Virus record (IMG/VR): IMGVR_UViG_3300032523_000302
Span: 1 to 20,877 of that record
Length of the DNA stretch: 20,877 nucleotides
Direction: 5' to 3' (one strand)
Origin: a virus
Positions 13,620 through 20,655 of this stretch are shown here, one piece after another. Made by a program: the position numbers and the translations under genes. Every line of letters starts with the position of its first letter. Within the stretch, counting starts at the first letter, position 1. The notes below the pieces were generated by a model. That model was not told the DNA's origin. It searched no databases and was given only the letters and a program-made list of their open reading frames with translations.

Positions 13620-14150
13620 TTATTTTAAGCTGTTTACATTAAGATTATGTTCTTTTGCGATTTTTCTTTTTAGTAGAATAAGATTTCTATGATGTTCATA
13701 AAGTTCATCTGATAAATCATTAACAGAAATACCTAATAAACCAGCAATTGAATGCTTTGGCATCGTACTCTTTGATTTTTCATAATGTTTTTTTCTATTA
13801 ATTATTGTTTTTTCAGGATTTTTAGTTCTGCATCTCTTGATTACTTTTTGATGTTGCAGATTTTTACAATCATTGCAGTATAAATAAAGTAGTTGAGTTA
13901 CAAGATTTGAACATTCTGAATTTTTACAAGGCTTAAATCCGTAATAATCAATCAGTAACTTATTATTACCATAACGTTTTCCATTTAATACAATCTGAAA
14001 AGTTGTCCCTCTTGGATCTTTACTACCTTGAAGAATTGATTTTTCATAAACTCTTTTTTGATTTCTTAGAATTTTATAATGTTTAATCACAACACCATCT
14101 TCTCTGATTGAATACTGCTCATTTGTTCCTTCAATGAATTTCTCTATCAT
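13620..14150 (-). CDS. Putative homing-endonuclease-type protein (NUMOD4-like, zinc-binding)
   Basis: 176 residues from ATG 14150. The N-terminus YSIREDGVVIKHYKILRN then FQIVLNGKRYGNNKLLIDYY resembles the NUMOD4-style region that begins many phage HNH homing endonucleases. It is followed by a four-Cys cluster (CKNSEC ... CNDC, residues about 93-114), a basic stretch and a C-terminal helical segment (LLGISVNDLSDELYEHH) that may bind DNA. No clear HNH triad is visible, so it may be a relic or a different nuclease type. The gene is more AT-rich than its neighbours, sits directly after a terminator, and does not overlap adjacent genes, all signs of a mobile insertion. Confidence 0.5.
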   Translation of the reverse strand: MIEKFIEGTNEQYSIREDGVVIKHYKILRNQKRVYEKSILQGSKDPRGTTFQIVLNGKRYGNNKLLIDYYGFKPCKNSECSNLVTQLLYLYCNDCKNLQHQKVIKRCRTKNPEKTIINRKKHYEKSKSTMPKHSIAGLLGISVNDLSDELYEHHRNLILLKRKIAKEHNLNVNSLK

Positions 14151-16545: not shown

Positions 16546-16675
16546 AAATAATGGGTTAAAATTGGTAAACAATAAATACTATCTAATAGAAGACATGTAG
16601 CAAATGCTTTCAATGTCTCAGTCCTTGTGCCCTCAAAATTGGGCATAATACATAATGTGATCATAATTGATTGAT

Positions 16676-16831
16676 TTAATTGCTCTTGTTCAAGATGCAT
16701 CCTTTCTTCACATACTCATTGATCTCATCCCATTGCTTCTTCATAGCATCAGCAAAATACTCATCAAGAGCATTCTTTTTAATAGAAGCAATAGTCTTAG
16801 GAAACAAGAAGGTTAAAATTGATTGTAACAT
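16676..16831 (-). CDS. 51-residue hypothetical protein
   Basis: ATG 16831 gives MLQSILTFLFPKTIASIKKN, then ALDEYFADAMKKQWDEINEY and VKKGCILNKSN. The N-terminus is a short amphipathic or hydrophobic helix; the rest is a charged helix. It starts about 25 bases downstream of a leftward terminator (16855-16883), so it may depend on readthrough or a promoter overlapping that terminator. Composition and codon use are gene-like. No family recognised. Confidence 0.6.
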   Translation of the reverse strand: MLQSILTFLFPKTIASIKKNALDEYFADAMKKQWDEINEYVKKGCILNKSN

Positions 16832-16854
16832 GTTTGTGTGGGTTTAAATGAATG

Positions 16855-16883
16855 TAAATAAAAATGCAGGCTTTGCACCTGCT
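16855..16883 (-). terminator. Intrinsic terminator ending the structured RNA region
   Basis: On the minus strand GCAGG-TGCAAAG-CCTGC is followed by ATTTTTATTT. The stem bases are 16866-16870 and 16878-16882. It lies at the downstream edge of a gene-poor, highly structured stretch, so the transcript it ends is probably non-coding. Confidence 0.7.
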
Positions 16884-17032
16884 TGGGAGCATATATACCT
16901 CCAAATCCCTCTGCACTCAATTGTAATACATTCAGGAACTATGTAATGAACATAAACCATCCTTAGCTACGTTACACTCTGTACACAAGTACTTTGGCCC
17001 ATATGGATATTACAACTGCTCACCCTTGGGAG

Positions 17033-17100
17033 CTGATTACTTTATCTACTAAATCCCTTACTTGTTAAAGCTTAGATGTTATATTTAGTAGAGTAATCAG
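17033..17100. repeat. Long imperfect inverted repeat
   Basis: Arm CTGATTACT-(TTAT)-CTACTAAAT at 17033-17054 pairs with ATTTAGTAGAGTAATCAG at 17083-17100: 18 base pairs with a 4-base bulge and a 28-base loop. It is one of the most stable hairpins in the window and lies inside the candidate structured RNA. Confidence 0.8.
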
Positions 17101-17220
17101 GTGGTTTCACATCTTAACTCAAGCCTACCATCATTACTACTCAGCTGTAGTGTCAGATTGTTATGATGATAAGGCATAGTCAGTATAGAAGTCTTCATAT
17201 CCACGTGAGAATGGTGCATT

Positions 17221-17248
17221 AAACAAAAGAGCCCTATTACAGGCTCTT
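17221..17248 (-). terminator. Intrinsic terminator overlapping a stop codon
   Basis: AAGAGCC (17227-17233) pairs with GGCTCTT (17242-17248); on the minus strand the stem is followed by TTGTTT. The TAA of the small gene ending at 17237 lies in the hairpin loop, so the terminator doubles as the gene end. Confidence 0.7.
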
Positions 17249-17436
17249 AGGATCAAAAGGATAATCATCCCATCTCCATTCTACAATACCATTAAGTTCT
17301 GTATAATATGGAACTTTAATAGTGTTAGAATAAAGACTAATTACAACTATCTTATCACCTGCATTTAATTCCTCATCAAGATTAGGCCAATCACCTTCAT
17401 GGTTCTTCTTTTCGATTTGTTAATGATGATGTACAT
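17237..17436 (-). pseudogene. Small gene split by an apparent one-base deletion
   Basis: A leftward frame open from 17419 to a TAA at 17237 reads as a plausible protein: KKNHEGDWPNLDEELNAG, DKIVVISLYSNTIKV, then TELNGIVEWRWDDYPFD. It has no ATG, GTG or TTG start before its upstream stop. In the neighbouring frame ATG 17436 gives MYIIINKSK and then meets a four-A run (minus strand, 17409-17412). One extra A there would join the two into a protein of about 66 residues. The final helix-free, Trp-rich end and the terminator at its stop support a once-intact gene. Alternatives are a -1 frameshift, a non-standard start, or a sequencing error. Confidence 0.5.
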
Positions 17437-17492
17437 ATAAATGTTAGGGTTAATGCTATATAATTTAATGAATACTGAAATCAACACTTGTG

Positions 17493-17512: not shown

Positions 17513-17787
17513 TATTAGTCACACTCCCACTCCTTTACATACAACTATTTCTTAGTAAAGTACAACATGAAGTTTACAATTCCCCGTGTAAAACTTTATT
17601 AAATTGTACATTACAATACTTTCGTTGTATTTTATAAAGAAGACATCCTCACACCACATATAACACAACGCAACGTGTATTATATATGTCATCTATTTGC
17701 TTGATGATGCATTAGAATGTTCTTCTATATACGTTAATAAGCGCAGCGATTTCTCGCCACGCTATTAATGCCTATTGGCAAAGGAGC
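17513..17787. other. Gene-free AT-rich segment with two large hairpins
   Basis: No ORF of interest is seen on either strand. It contains a nested inverted repeat at 17560-17609 (outer GTACAA/TTGTAC, inner AAGTTTACA/TGTAAAACTT) and a 13-bp hairpin at 17734-17768 (TTAATA-A-GCG, inner GCGA with a TTTC loop). AT-rich DNA with strong inverted repeats close to the point where gene direction flips could be a replication origin, a regulatory region, or another structured transcript. Sequence alone does not decide. Confidence 0.45.
17734..17768. repeat. Imperfect 13-bp inverted repeat
   Basis: TTAATA-(A)-GCG pairs with CGC-TATTAA, then a 2x2 CA/CA internal loop, then GCGA/TCGC closing a TTTC loop (GAAA, a GNRA tetraloop, on the minus strand). 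It lies 20 bases downstream of the stop of the leftward gene 17788-18186. Confidence 0.75.
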
Positions 17788-17797
17788 TTATTGCTCC
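17783..17797 (-). terminator. Hairpin containing the stop codon of the 132-residue gene
   Basis: GGAGC-TTATT-GCTCC with the TAA in its loop, followed on the minus strand by TTTGCC. The T-run is short, so termination may rely on this plus the larger hairpin at 17734-17768. Confidence 0.5.
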
Positions 17798-18186
17798 AAT
17801 GCCTTTACGTCTGCCTCGCTTAGTTCTGCTTTTGCTTTGAATGAACCCTTCATGATGCTTTGTAGTACAGCATCAGTTTGAGTTAGGCCAATCATTTGCG
17901 CATTGCTTGCGTAACCGTCGAATGCCAATCGTGTAACATTACTAGTGTTACCATTAGCATCTTCAATGGTGTCTTCCGTCTCAAGCAAGAATGCAGTGTG
18001 AACTTTACCAGCTTTAAGTTCTGCAAGGAATGGGTCTTTATCATTGATAGTAAAGACTGTTCCATTGTAGGTTACTCTGGAGTAGGTTTGTCCAGCAAGT
18101 GCAGAATCTTTTGCGTAAGGTCTAGAAGATTCTAGGACTCTAAGACGAAAGATTTGAGCCCCTTTGATTTCGATTGCAGTTGTCAT
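17788..18186 (-). CDS. Hypothetical protein, possibly nucleic-acid binding
   Basis: 132 residues from ATG 18186 (MTTAIEIKGAQIFRLRVLES). The open frame extends upstream to 18294, but that part lies in a GC-richer hairpin-forming leader. The protein is beta-rich in its first 90 residues (YSRVTYNGTVFTINDKD, KVHTAFLLETEDTIED) and ends with a helical KAKAELSEADVKALEQ. I do not recognise it; the layout would suit a small beta-barrel. It is the last leftward gene before the divergent junction and stands alone, with its own leader and terminator, suggesting separate and perhaps strong expression. Confidence 0.7.
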   Translation of the reverse strand: MTTAIEIKGAQIFRLRVLESSRPYAKDSALAGQTYSRVTYNGTVFTINDKDPFLAELKAGKVHTAFLLETEDTIEDANGNTSNVTRLAFDGYASNAQMIGLTQTDAVLQSIMKGSFKAKAELSEADVKALEQ

Positions 18187-18219
18187 TTTAGTTTGTGTTT
18201 TGTTGTTGATTAAGGTTAA

Positions 18220-18244
18220 GGCATGGGGACTACCCCAACATGCC
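18220..18244. other. GC-rich leader hairpin
   Basis: GGCATG (18220-18225) pairs with CATGCC (18239-18244), enclosing GGG/CCC with an ACTA-type loop. A second small hairpin (CCC-GCAA-GGG, 18249-18258) follows. Both lie 30-75 bases upstream of ATG 18186 in the presumed 5' leader of the leftward gene. Its GC content contrasts with the AT-rich surroundings. It may affect translation or mRNA stability. Confidence 0.55.
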
Positions 18245-18386
18245 ATTTCCCGCAAGGGGTTTCTATCTGATGTAGCCCACTCCCCCATACCCATAAAACT
18301 TTTCTAAAATTTTAAAATTGTAGGGGGCTGTTCACTATACAAGTGACTAAGGGTGGGGCACATGAATAAAAACAGAAATAATAAAA

Positions 18387-19820: not shown

Positions 19821-20078
19821 ATGAAAGATTTACACAACGATATTCCTGCCTCAGCAAAAGATGCTGAAGAATTGGTTGATTTCATAAAAAATGAAACTCC
19901 CGAAGATGAATACTTAAGAGTGAGAAGAGATATGCATAGGGAAATTATGTATGTAAAAAATACAATTGCTCAATTGATGGAAGACATTAAAAAAGAAATT
20001 GATCATATTGATTGGTCTGTTTTGCAAATGGAAGAGTCTTATGAGAATTATTTAAAACAGAAAAATGGCAGCTCCTAA
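19821..20078 (+). CDS. Coiled-coil hypothetical protein
   Basis: 85 residues from ATG 19821. Mostly charged helix: AEELVDFIKNETPEDEYL, VRRDMHREIMYVKNTI and MEDIKKEIDHIDWSVLQMEE suggest a coiled coil that could mediate oligomerisation. It ends NYLKQKNGSS and overlaps the GIY-YIG gene by 14 bases. Function unknown. Confidence 0.65.
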   Translation: MKDLHNDIPASAKDAEELVDFIKNETPEDEYLRVRRDMHREIMYVKNTIAQLMEDIKKEIDHIDWSVLQMEESYENYLKQKNGSS

Positions 20079-20655
20079 GAAAACTACGTACATTAATACA
20101 GAGCTCGATTACAATCTTGCATTTTTTGCAGGGGTGTATAAAATTAATAACTCAGTAAGCGGAAAGTCTTATATTGGATCATCTATTAGCTTATATAAAA
20201 GATTATCTGAGCATTTTGAAAAACTTAGAAAAGGAATTCATAAAAATCCTCATTTACAATCCTCGTATTTAAAATATGGGAATGTATTTAATTTTGAGAT
20301 TTTAAAAATTTGTAAACCTGAAGAAGTTTTTCAAACTGAGCAGTATTATTTGGATACAATAAAACCTGAGTATAATATAAATAAAAGGGCTACAGGTAGA
20401 CATGGTTCAATGAGAAGAGAAACAATTGAAAAAAGAAGTTTATCTCAATCTAAACCTGTTGAGCAATATGATGAAAATGGTAAATTGATTGCTGAATTTA
20501 AAAGCATAACGGAAGTTTTTGAAAAGTTTAATATTAAAAAAACTGGTGCAATAGTTGATCACTTAAAAGGTAAACAAAGAATTTTTCAAGGATATTTCTG
20601 GTGCTATAAAGGAGGATTACCTTTAATAAGAAAAAAAAGAAACAGATGGCAATAA
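20065..20655 (+). CDS. GIY-YIG homing endonuclease with NUMOD1-type domain
   Basis: 196 residues from ATG 20065. GIY-YIG core: GVYKI (23-27), YIGSS (36-40), the conserved Arg in KRLSEH (about 46) and Glu in FQTEQYYLD (92), followed by KPEYNINKRATGRHGS. A C-terminal segment KPVEQYDENGKLIAEFKSI, then KGKQRIFQGYFWCY, is a NUMOD1/IENR1-type DNA-binding module. The gene is markedly AT-rich compared with neighbours, pointing to horizontal entry. Its first 18 residues (MAAPKKTTYINTELDYNL) resemble those of the following gene, which suggests insertion at that gene's 5' end. Such enzymes cleave unoccupied sites to spread. Confidence 0.88.
   Translation: MAAPKKTTYINTELDYNLAFFAGVYKINNSVSGKSYIGSSISLYKRLSEHFEKLRKGIHKNPHLQSSYLKYGNVFNFEILKICKPEEVFQTEQYYLDTIKPEYNINKRATGRHGSMRRETIEKRSLSQSKPVEQYDENGKLIAEFKSITEVFEKFNIKKTGAIVDHLKGKQRIFQGYFWCYKGGLPLIRKKRNRWQ

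Follow-up and report, generated by a model that had tools for sequence, protein, structure and literature searches.

The window analysed here is a 20,877-nt stretch of viral DNA (IMG/VR record IMGVR_UViG_3300032523_000302). On its minus strand, two leftward terminator-like hairpins at 17248–17227 (T1) and 16882–16866 (T2) delimit a segment that a sequence-only reading had placed at 16855–17226 and proposed as an independently transcribed, structured non-coding RNA of the phage. The flanking hairpins were confirmed. The conserved unit is shorter, comprising 315 nt from 17219 to 16905 on the minus strand, and T2 and the bases below 16905 fall outside it. T1 resembles an intrinsic terminator, ends 7 nt 5' of the unit and has an identical 31-nt stretch in the related locus L003. 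T2 lies 3' of the unit and is kept in L003 and L034. With a third hairpin at 17513–17498, three leftward terminator-like hairpins are present, compared with 1.3 ± 1.4 in shuffled sequences.

Inside the segment, no ORF longer than 40 codons was found on either strand, in line with the earlier reading. Upstream of T1, about 60 codons (17250–17430, minus strand) form an open frame that ends within the T1 stem, has no ATG, GTG or TTG start, and is possibly a truncated small gene. Two proteins encoded elsewhere in the window are, by our reading, homing-endonuclease-like: the one at 13620–14150 (minus strand) matches only the uncharacterised phrog_32828, and the one at 20065–20655 (plus strand) is GIY-YIG-like by sequence.

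The minus strand of the segment folds with a z-score of −1.62, and 8 of 100 shuffles fold equally well; the plus strand gives a z-score of 0.03. Because this fold is only modestly above shuffles, energy by itself would not prove the segment to be an RNA; the comparison of relatives does. The weak folding of the window copy, and the degenerate-looking open frame upstream of T1, would fit a chance structure or a decayed gene between terminators with no functional RNA at all. This explanation is extremely improbable, being contradicted by the distribution of the units and refuted by the covariation of both of their forms (below).

A family of phage RNA units

The gene encoding a 168-aa protein next to the segment (17788–18294) served as the entry point to related loci (L002–L007). 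In L003 both terminators are kept and the sequence between them is different, with two short motifs recurring, CAGTTGTA and TACAAyTGAnnGCAGAGGGAT. The latter, a 21-nt signature of the 3' end, was found in 111 IMG/VR stretches, and a second signature, that of the long form described below, in 40. About 88 distinct units with both left and right core were extracted; among 48 long-form candidates, both ends were found in 33. Because the search accepted only exact copies of the signature, divergent members were missed and conservation at the 3' end is overestimated. Across 257 Gb of bacterial and archaeal genomes the 21-nt signature has a single match, which lies within a response-regulator gene and was rejected as a chance match in coding sequence. 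The family is thus phage-specific. A direct DNA search of INPHARED returned no match, and neither did a 43-nt core query.

The window and 23 further loci were compared with the 4227 covariance models of Rfam 15 at the curated (gathering) threshold. The matches were limited to tRNAs, one tmRNA and one Pistol ribozyme, all of them outside the units, and no family was matched by the segment. ARAGORN likewise found no tRNA or tmRNA in the window. None of 78 units is spanned by an ORF and no Rfam intron model was matched, which argues against both group I and group II introns. The Pistol ribozyme (RF02679, 56 bits; L049:13780–13840) belongs to the same operon as two units and precedes them by about 500 nt. 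The tmRNA gene (RF00023, 70.9 bits; L031:7798–8271) belongs to a phage record of 116 kb and is followed by a tRNA-Thr. In L041, a hammerhead-like core string (CTGATGAGTCCTAGTGGGACGAAAC), unreported by Rfam at the gathering threshold, directly follows the unit ending at 2732.

The units occur in a short and a long form. The short form has the layout ATGCACCA-n-CTCAC-TTCCCAAGG-GTGAG-CAGTTGTAAT-[V3]-TACAACTG-A-GTGCA-GAGGGAT, in which the variable arm V3 measures 24–124 nt in nearly all units. It is a three-way junction of helices P1, P2 and P3 with a likely loop–tail pseudoknot. In the long form, the P2 loop is opened to CTCAC-GTGGATATAAAGACTTCTTA-[V1]-TAAGATGTGAAACCACCTGATTAA-[V2]-TTAATCAG-CTCCCAAGG-GTGAG, adding helices P4, P5 and P6 and two further variable arms. 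In alignments made with shortened arms, 97.5% of the cells are paired in the short form (46 sequences), and both sides have changed in 14 of 25 pairs; the covariation score is 0.326, compared with 0.135 ± 0.008 in shuffled alignments and at most 0.092 when the pairing is slid. The long form (25 sequences) is 96.6% paired with 17 pairs changed on both sides, and scores 0.174 compared with 0.077 for shuffles. The helices covary clearly. Among non-Watson–Crick cells, G-U outnumbers A-C by 21:8 and 24:7 in the two alignments, as expected if the sense-strand RNA folds.

Every long-form element is present at 17219–16905 of the window (5' ATGCACC...GCAGAGGGAT 3'; all positions on the minus strand), and its ends and core are those kept across the extracted units. 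Helix P1 pairs TGCAC (17214–17218) with GTGCA (16912–16916) and covaries at three positions (CG/UA, AU/GC and CG/UA). P2 pairs CTCAC (17205–17209) with GTGAG (17019–17023); in the short form all five of its pairs covary and it is 100% paired. P4, formed by GTGG (17201–17204) and CCAC (17101–17104), is also 100% paired. Across the long form it varies from GUGG/CCAC to GUAG/CUAC and GCAG/CUGC, with one pair AU instead of GC in 10 of the 25 sequences and another changed from UA to CG. P5 (ACTTCT, 17187–17192, with 17109–17114) contains one U-U mismatch and encloses V1; it is 97.7% paired family-wide and its two innermost pairs are missing in the window. V1 (17115–17186), with the hairpin ACTAC-AGCTGA-GTAGT, is of an arm type common to L081, L074 and L085. 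P6 (17093–17100 with 17033–17040) is 98% paired, ends in a compensated CG pair in the window copy, and together with arm V2, the two spanning 17100–17033, corresponds to the 18-bp hairpin noticed earlier. P3 (17018–17008 with 16928–16918), in which six pairs covary in the short form, is the 11-bp long-range helix containing a G-U pair that was also noticed earlier. The P3 element (16918–17018) encloses V3 (16929–17007), which matches the short-form arms of L091, L120 and L052 at 94–95% identity.

The invariant loop CTCCCAAGG (17024–17032) carries UCCC (17028–17031), which could pair with GGGA (16906–16909) in the kept 3' tail GAGGGAT (16905–16911). This pairing holds in 92–98% of sequences and is near-invariant, hence it shows little covariation, and the pseudoknot is plausible but unproved by that measure. 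The short-form model R1 gives the window unit a low score (15.9 bits); it is the long-form alignment that places this unit in the family. Taken together, the roughly 88 units sharing a core, their covarying helices, the absence of an Rfam 15 match and the absence of conserved coding potential bear out the main proposal of the earlier reading: we are highly confident that the segment belongs to a family of structured phage RNAs that had not been described before and has no counterpart in Rfam 15.

Genomic setting and expression

The units are found in non-coding arrays close to the head of a long co-directional early operon and share its coding strand. A divergent strand switch was found 0.1–5.5 kb upstream in 55 of the 57 loci with enough upstream sequence, mostly with 1–3 genes in between. 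A tRNA is present in the locus for 24 of 78 units, so tRNA proximity is not general, and no gene family or protein partner was consistently linked to the unit among the loci. By our reading of the layout and by the terminase, the host phages are crAss-related with genomes of about 110–125 kb. Related terminases occur in Cellulophaga, Bacteroides and gut crAss-like phages, among others. Of the cultured phages, the one with the closest terminase (40% identity) is Leptolyngbya phage Lbo-JY46, which infects a cyanobacterium and has no unit according to model R1.

Independent transcription, which the sequence-only reading had suggested, is unsupported. T1 stops 7 nt 5' of the first RNA base, leaving no space for a promoter, and the units are co-directional within a long operon. 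It is likelier that the window unit is made by read-through from upstream plus processing than from its own promoter.

This setting also bears on whether the unit is a cis element of the early operon, either a processive antitermination RNA or an inter-cistronic element for processing or stability within the next gene's leader. Internal terminator-like hairpins on the sense strand are denser in the early operon (about 3.3 per 10 kb) than in the same phage's late operon (1.1). A cis antiterminator would explain both these hairpins and the position of the units at the operon head. A hairpin lies within 45 nt upstream of 63% of the units, compared with 17% in shuffles. The next ATG is often 25–60 nt downstream, which fits a cis element and also counts against a role in trans. 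One antitermination RNA of this kind, put of phage HK022, is likewise a structured RNA near the start of early operons that contain terminators (PMC9378689). However, put consists of two stem-loops within about 70 nt and directly follows the promoter, and an antiterminator of its type would be expected to stand ahead of the terminators that it suppresses and to be kept in every relative whose operon needs it. This expectation does not hold here: RNA polymerase must pass T1 before making the window unit, and L002 and L004 have strong internal terminators in their early operons yet lack the unit. A cis element would also have no need of the tandem units and arm swapping described below. We therefore consider a cis role possible but on balance doubtful.

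Accessory presence and exchange of modules

In L002 and L004 the flanking 168-aa gene is kept at 82–84% identity and the window region 17449–16665 is cleanly absent, seen as a gap in blastn; neither locus has a model match. This cassette (16665–17449, minus strand) is accordingly accessory. In L034, a 74-nt module and the T2 module, which are adjacent in L003 (TTTCA|TTTGGAGG), are separated by exactly one unit. These modules are near-identical between the two loci, and the outer sequence is unrelated or far more diverged. The 74-nt module is itself folded, with sharp ends (TTGTATGTGGCCACGTAGTGCC...GGACATACAATTTCA), and was found at L003:6642–6716, at L034:1683–1757 and also in L052, near-identical between phages with unrelated neighbouring sequence.

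A second RNA family, TACTCTCATCCAAGCAGG-[variable]-CAAGGrTTGCAACCTTGTGAGAGTA, has members in at least 120 IMG/VR stretches (e.g., L024:3477–3606). It has a closing stem TACTCTCA/TGAGAGTA, a hairpin CAAGG-rTTGCAA-CCTTG and a variable arm of 5–156 nt, and 7 of its 13 pairs covary. In 57 loci it is no more than 1.5 kb away from the first family, which it sometimes directly abuts.

Within the units, the core is near-constant and the three arms are hypervariable. Comparison of 180 arms (101 V3, 40 V1 and 39 V2) gave 24 similar pairs, all 24 at the same arm position; from the arm counts, about 41% of pairs would be of the same type if position were irrelevant. L031, L149 and L156 have V3 in common and differ in V1 and V2. 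V2 alone is common to L037 and L135 and to L053 and L081, and V1 alone to L127 and L146. The V3 of L053 is identical across 112 nt to the short-form V3 of L117. Arms are thus swapped between phages one at a time and always into the same position. The exchange of single arms between units differing in J1/2 and in form fits homologous recombination within the conserved core. The arms themselves show mild structure (mean z −0.90 ± 0.10 for 160 arms). Hairpins resembling the tRNA T-arm are real but rare (5 of 180 arms, compared with 0–1 in shuffles), and a tRNA origin of the arms was dropped.

The clean ends raise the question of a selfish or site-specifically mobile module, similar to REP and IS200/IS605-derived miniature elements or to integron attC sites, with precise ends and a fold that would be read as ssDNA or RNA. 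The units resemble the REP and IS200/IS605-derived elements as short, folded, non-coding pieces with sharp ends. The L034 unit, set against L003, provides one clean empty-site case, and in four of the five unit pairs that have an interior in common, neither flank is related. Such elements would, however, be dispersed. Among 20 near-complete records (108–345 kb), one had no match and nearly all of the 19 matching records have a single locus, holding either one match or two side by side; one record has matches in two separate places. A dispersed transposon, our first reading, was dropped, as in nearly every near-complete record the units, from one to a few adjacent copies, are confined to one locus. 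Moreover, what is exchanged is often a single arm, for which homologous recombination in the core suffices, no transposase is linked, and the covarying core with its G-U excess favours RNA. We regard a mobile module as rather improbable.

Our preferred reading, held tentatively and somewhat short of an even chance, is that the unit is an accessory, early RNA acting in trans, the arms of which vary its putative partner or target. The unit would be transcribed early through read-through of T1 and then excised, or be stable as a folded piece. Its constant core may bind a common partner, such as a host or phage protein, the ribosome or an RNase. The arms would make up a variable surface able to bind, decoy or inhibit differing host targets, e.g., defence components, and such targets would explain both arm swapping and presence or absence. 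A trans-acting RNA with variable partners would account at once for the constancy of the core, the exchange of arms, the tandem units and the optional presence. A more specific and less probable version is an RNA platform, in which the constant core displays three hypervariable, exchangeable arms, arrayed with at least one other family, against changing host targets; if true, this would be an RNA counterpart of variable-domain display.

Structured phage RNAs of open function are already known as a broad kind. What is added here is a well-supported RNA family, with a second one linked to it, in a phage lineage without close cultured relatives. In the literature searched, which included large screens for structured RNA motifs (PMC8040213, PMC2864571), no match to the architecture was found, nor to the mode of evolution in which arms on a constant RNA core are swapped position by position between phages; subscription papers and supplementary tables lay outside this search, and an earlier mention as an unnamed motif is possible. 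GOLLD and ROOL are large structured RNAs of phages and prophages (PMC12286853) that are comparable in being phage RNAs of open function and are often found near tRNAs. Their Rfam models, however, were not matched, and the units described here are about 85–330 nt, modular and arrayed, with exchanged arms. For the proposed role in trans, the model is provided by RNA anti-CRISPRs (Racrs), small phage RNAs that mimic host RNA to block defence (PMC10651486). Racrs, however, mimic CRISPR repeats. If the arms of the present units face host targets, the arrays would represent a list of candidate RNA counter-defences.
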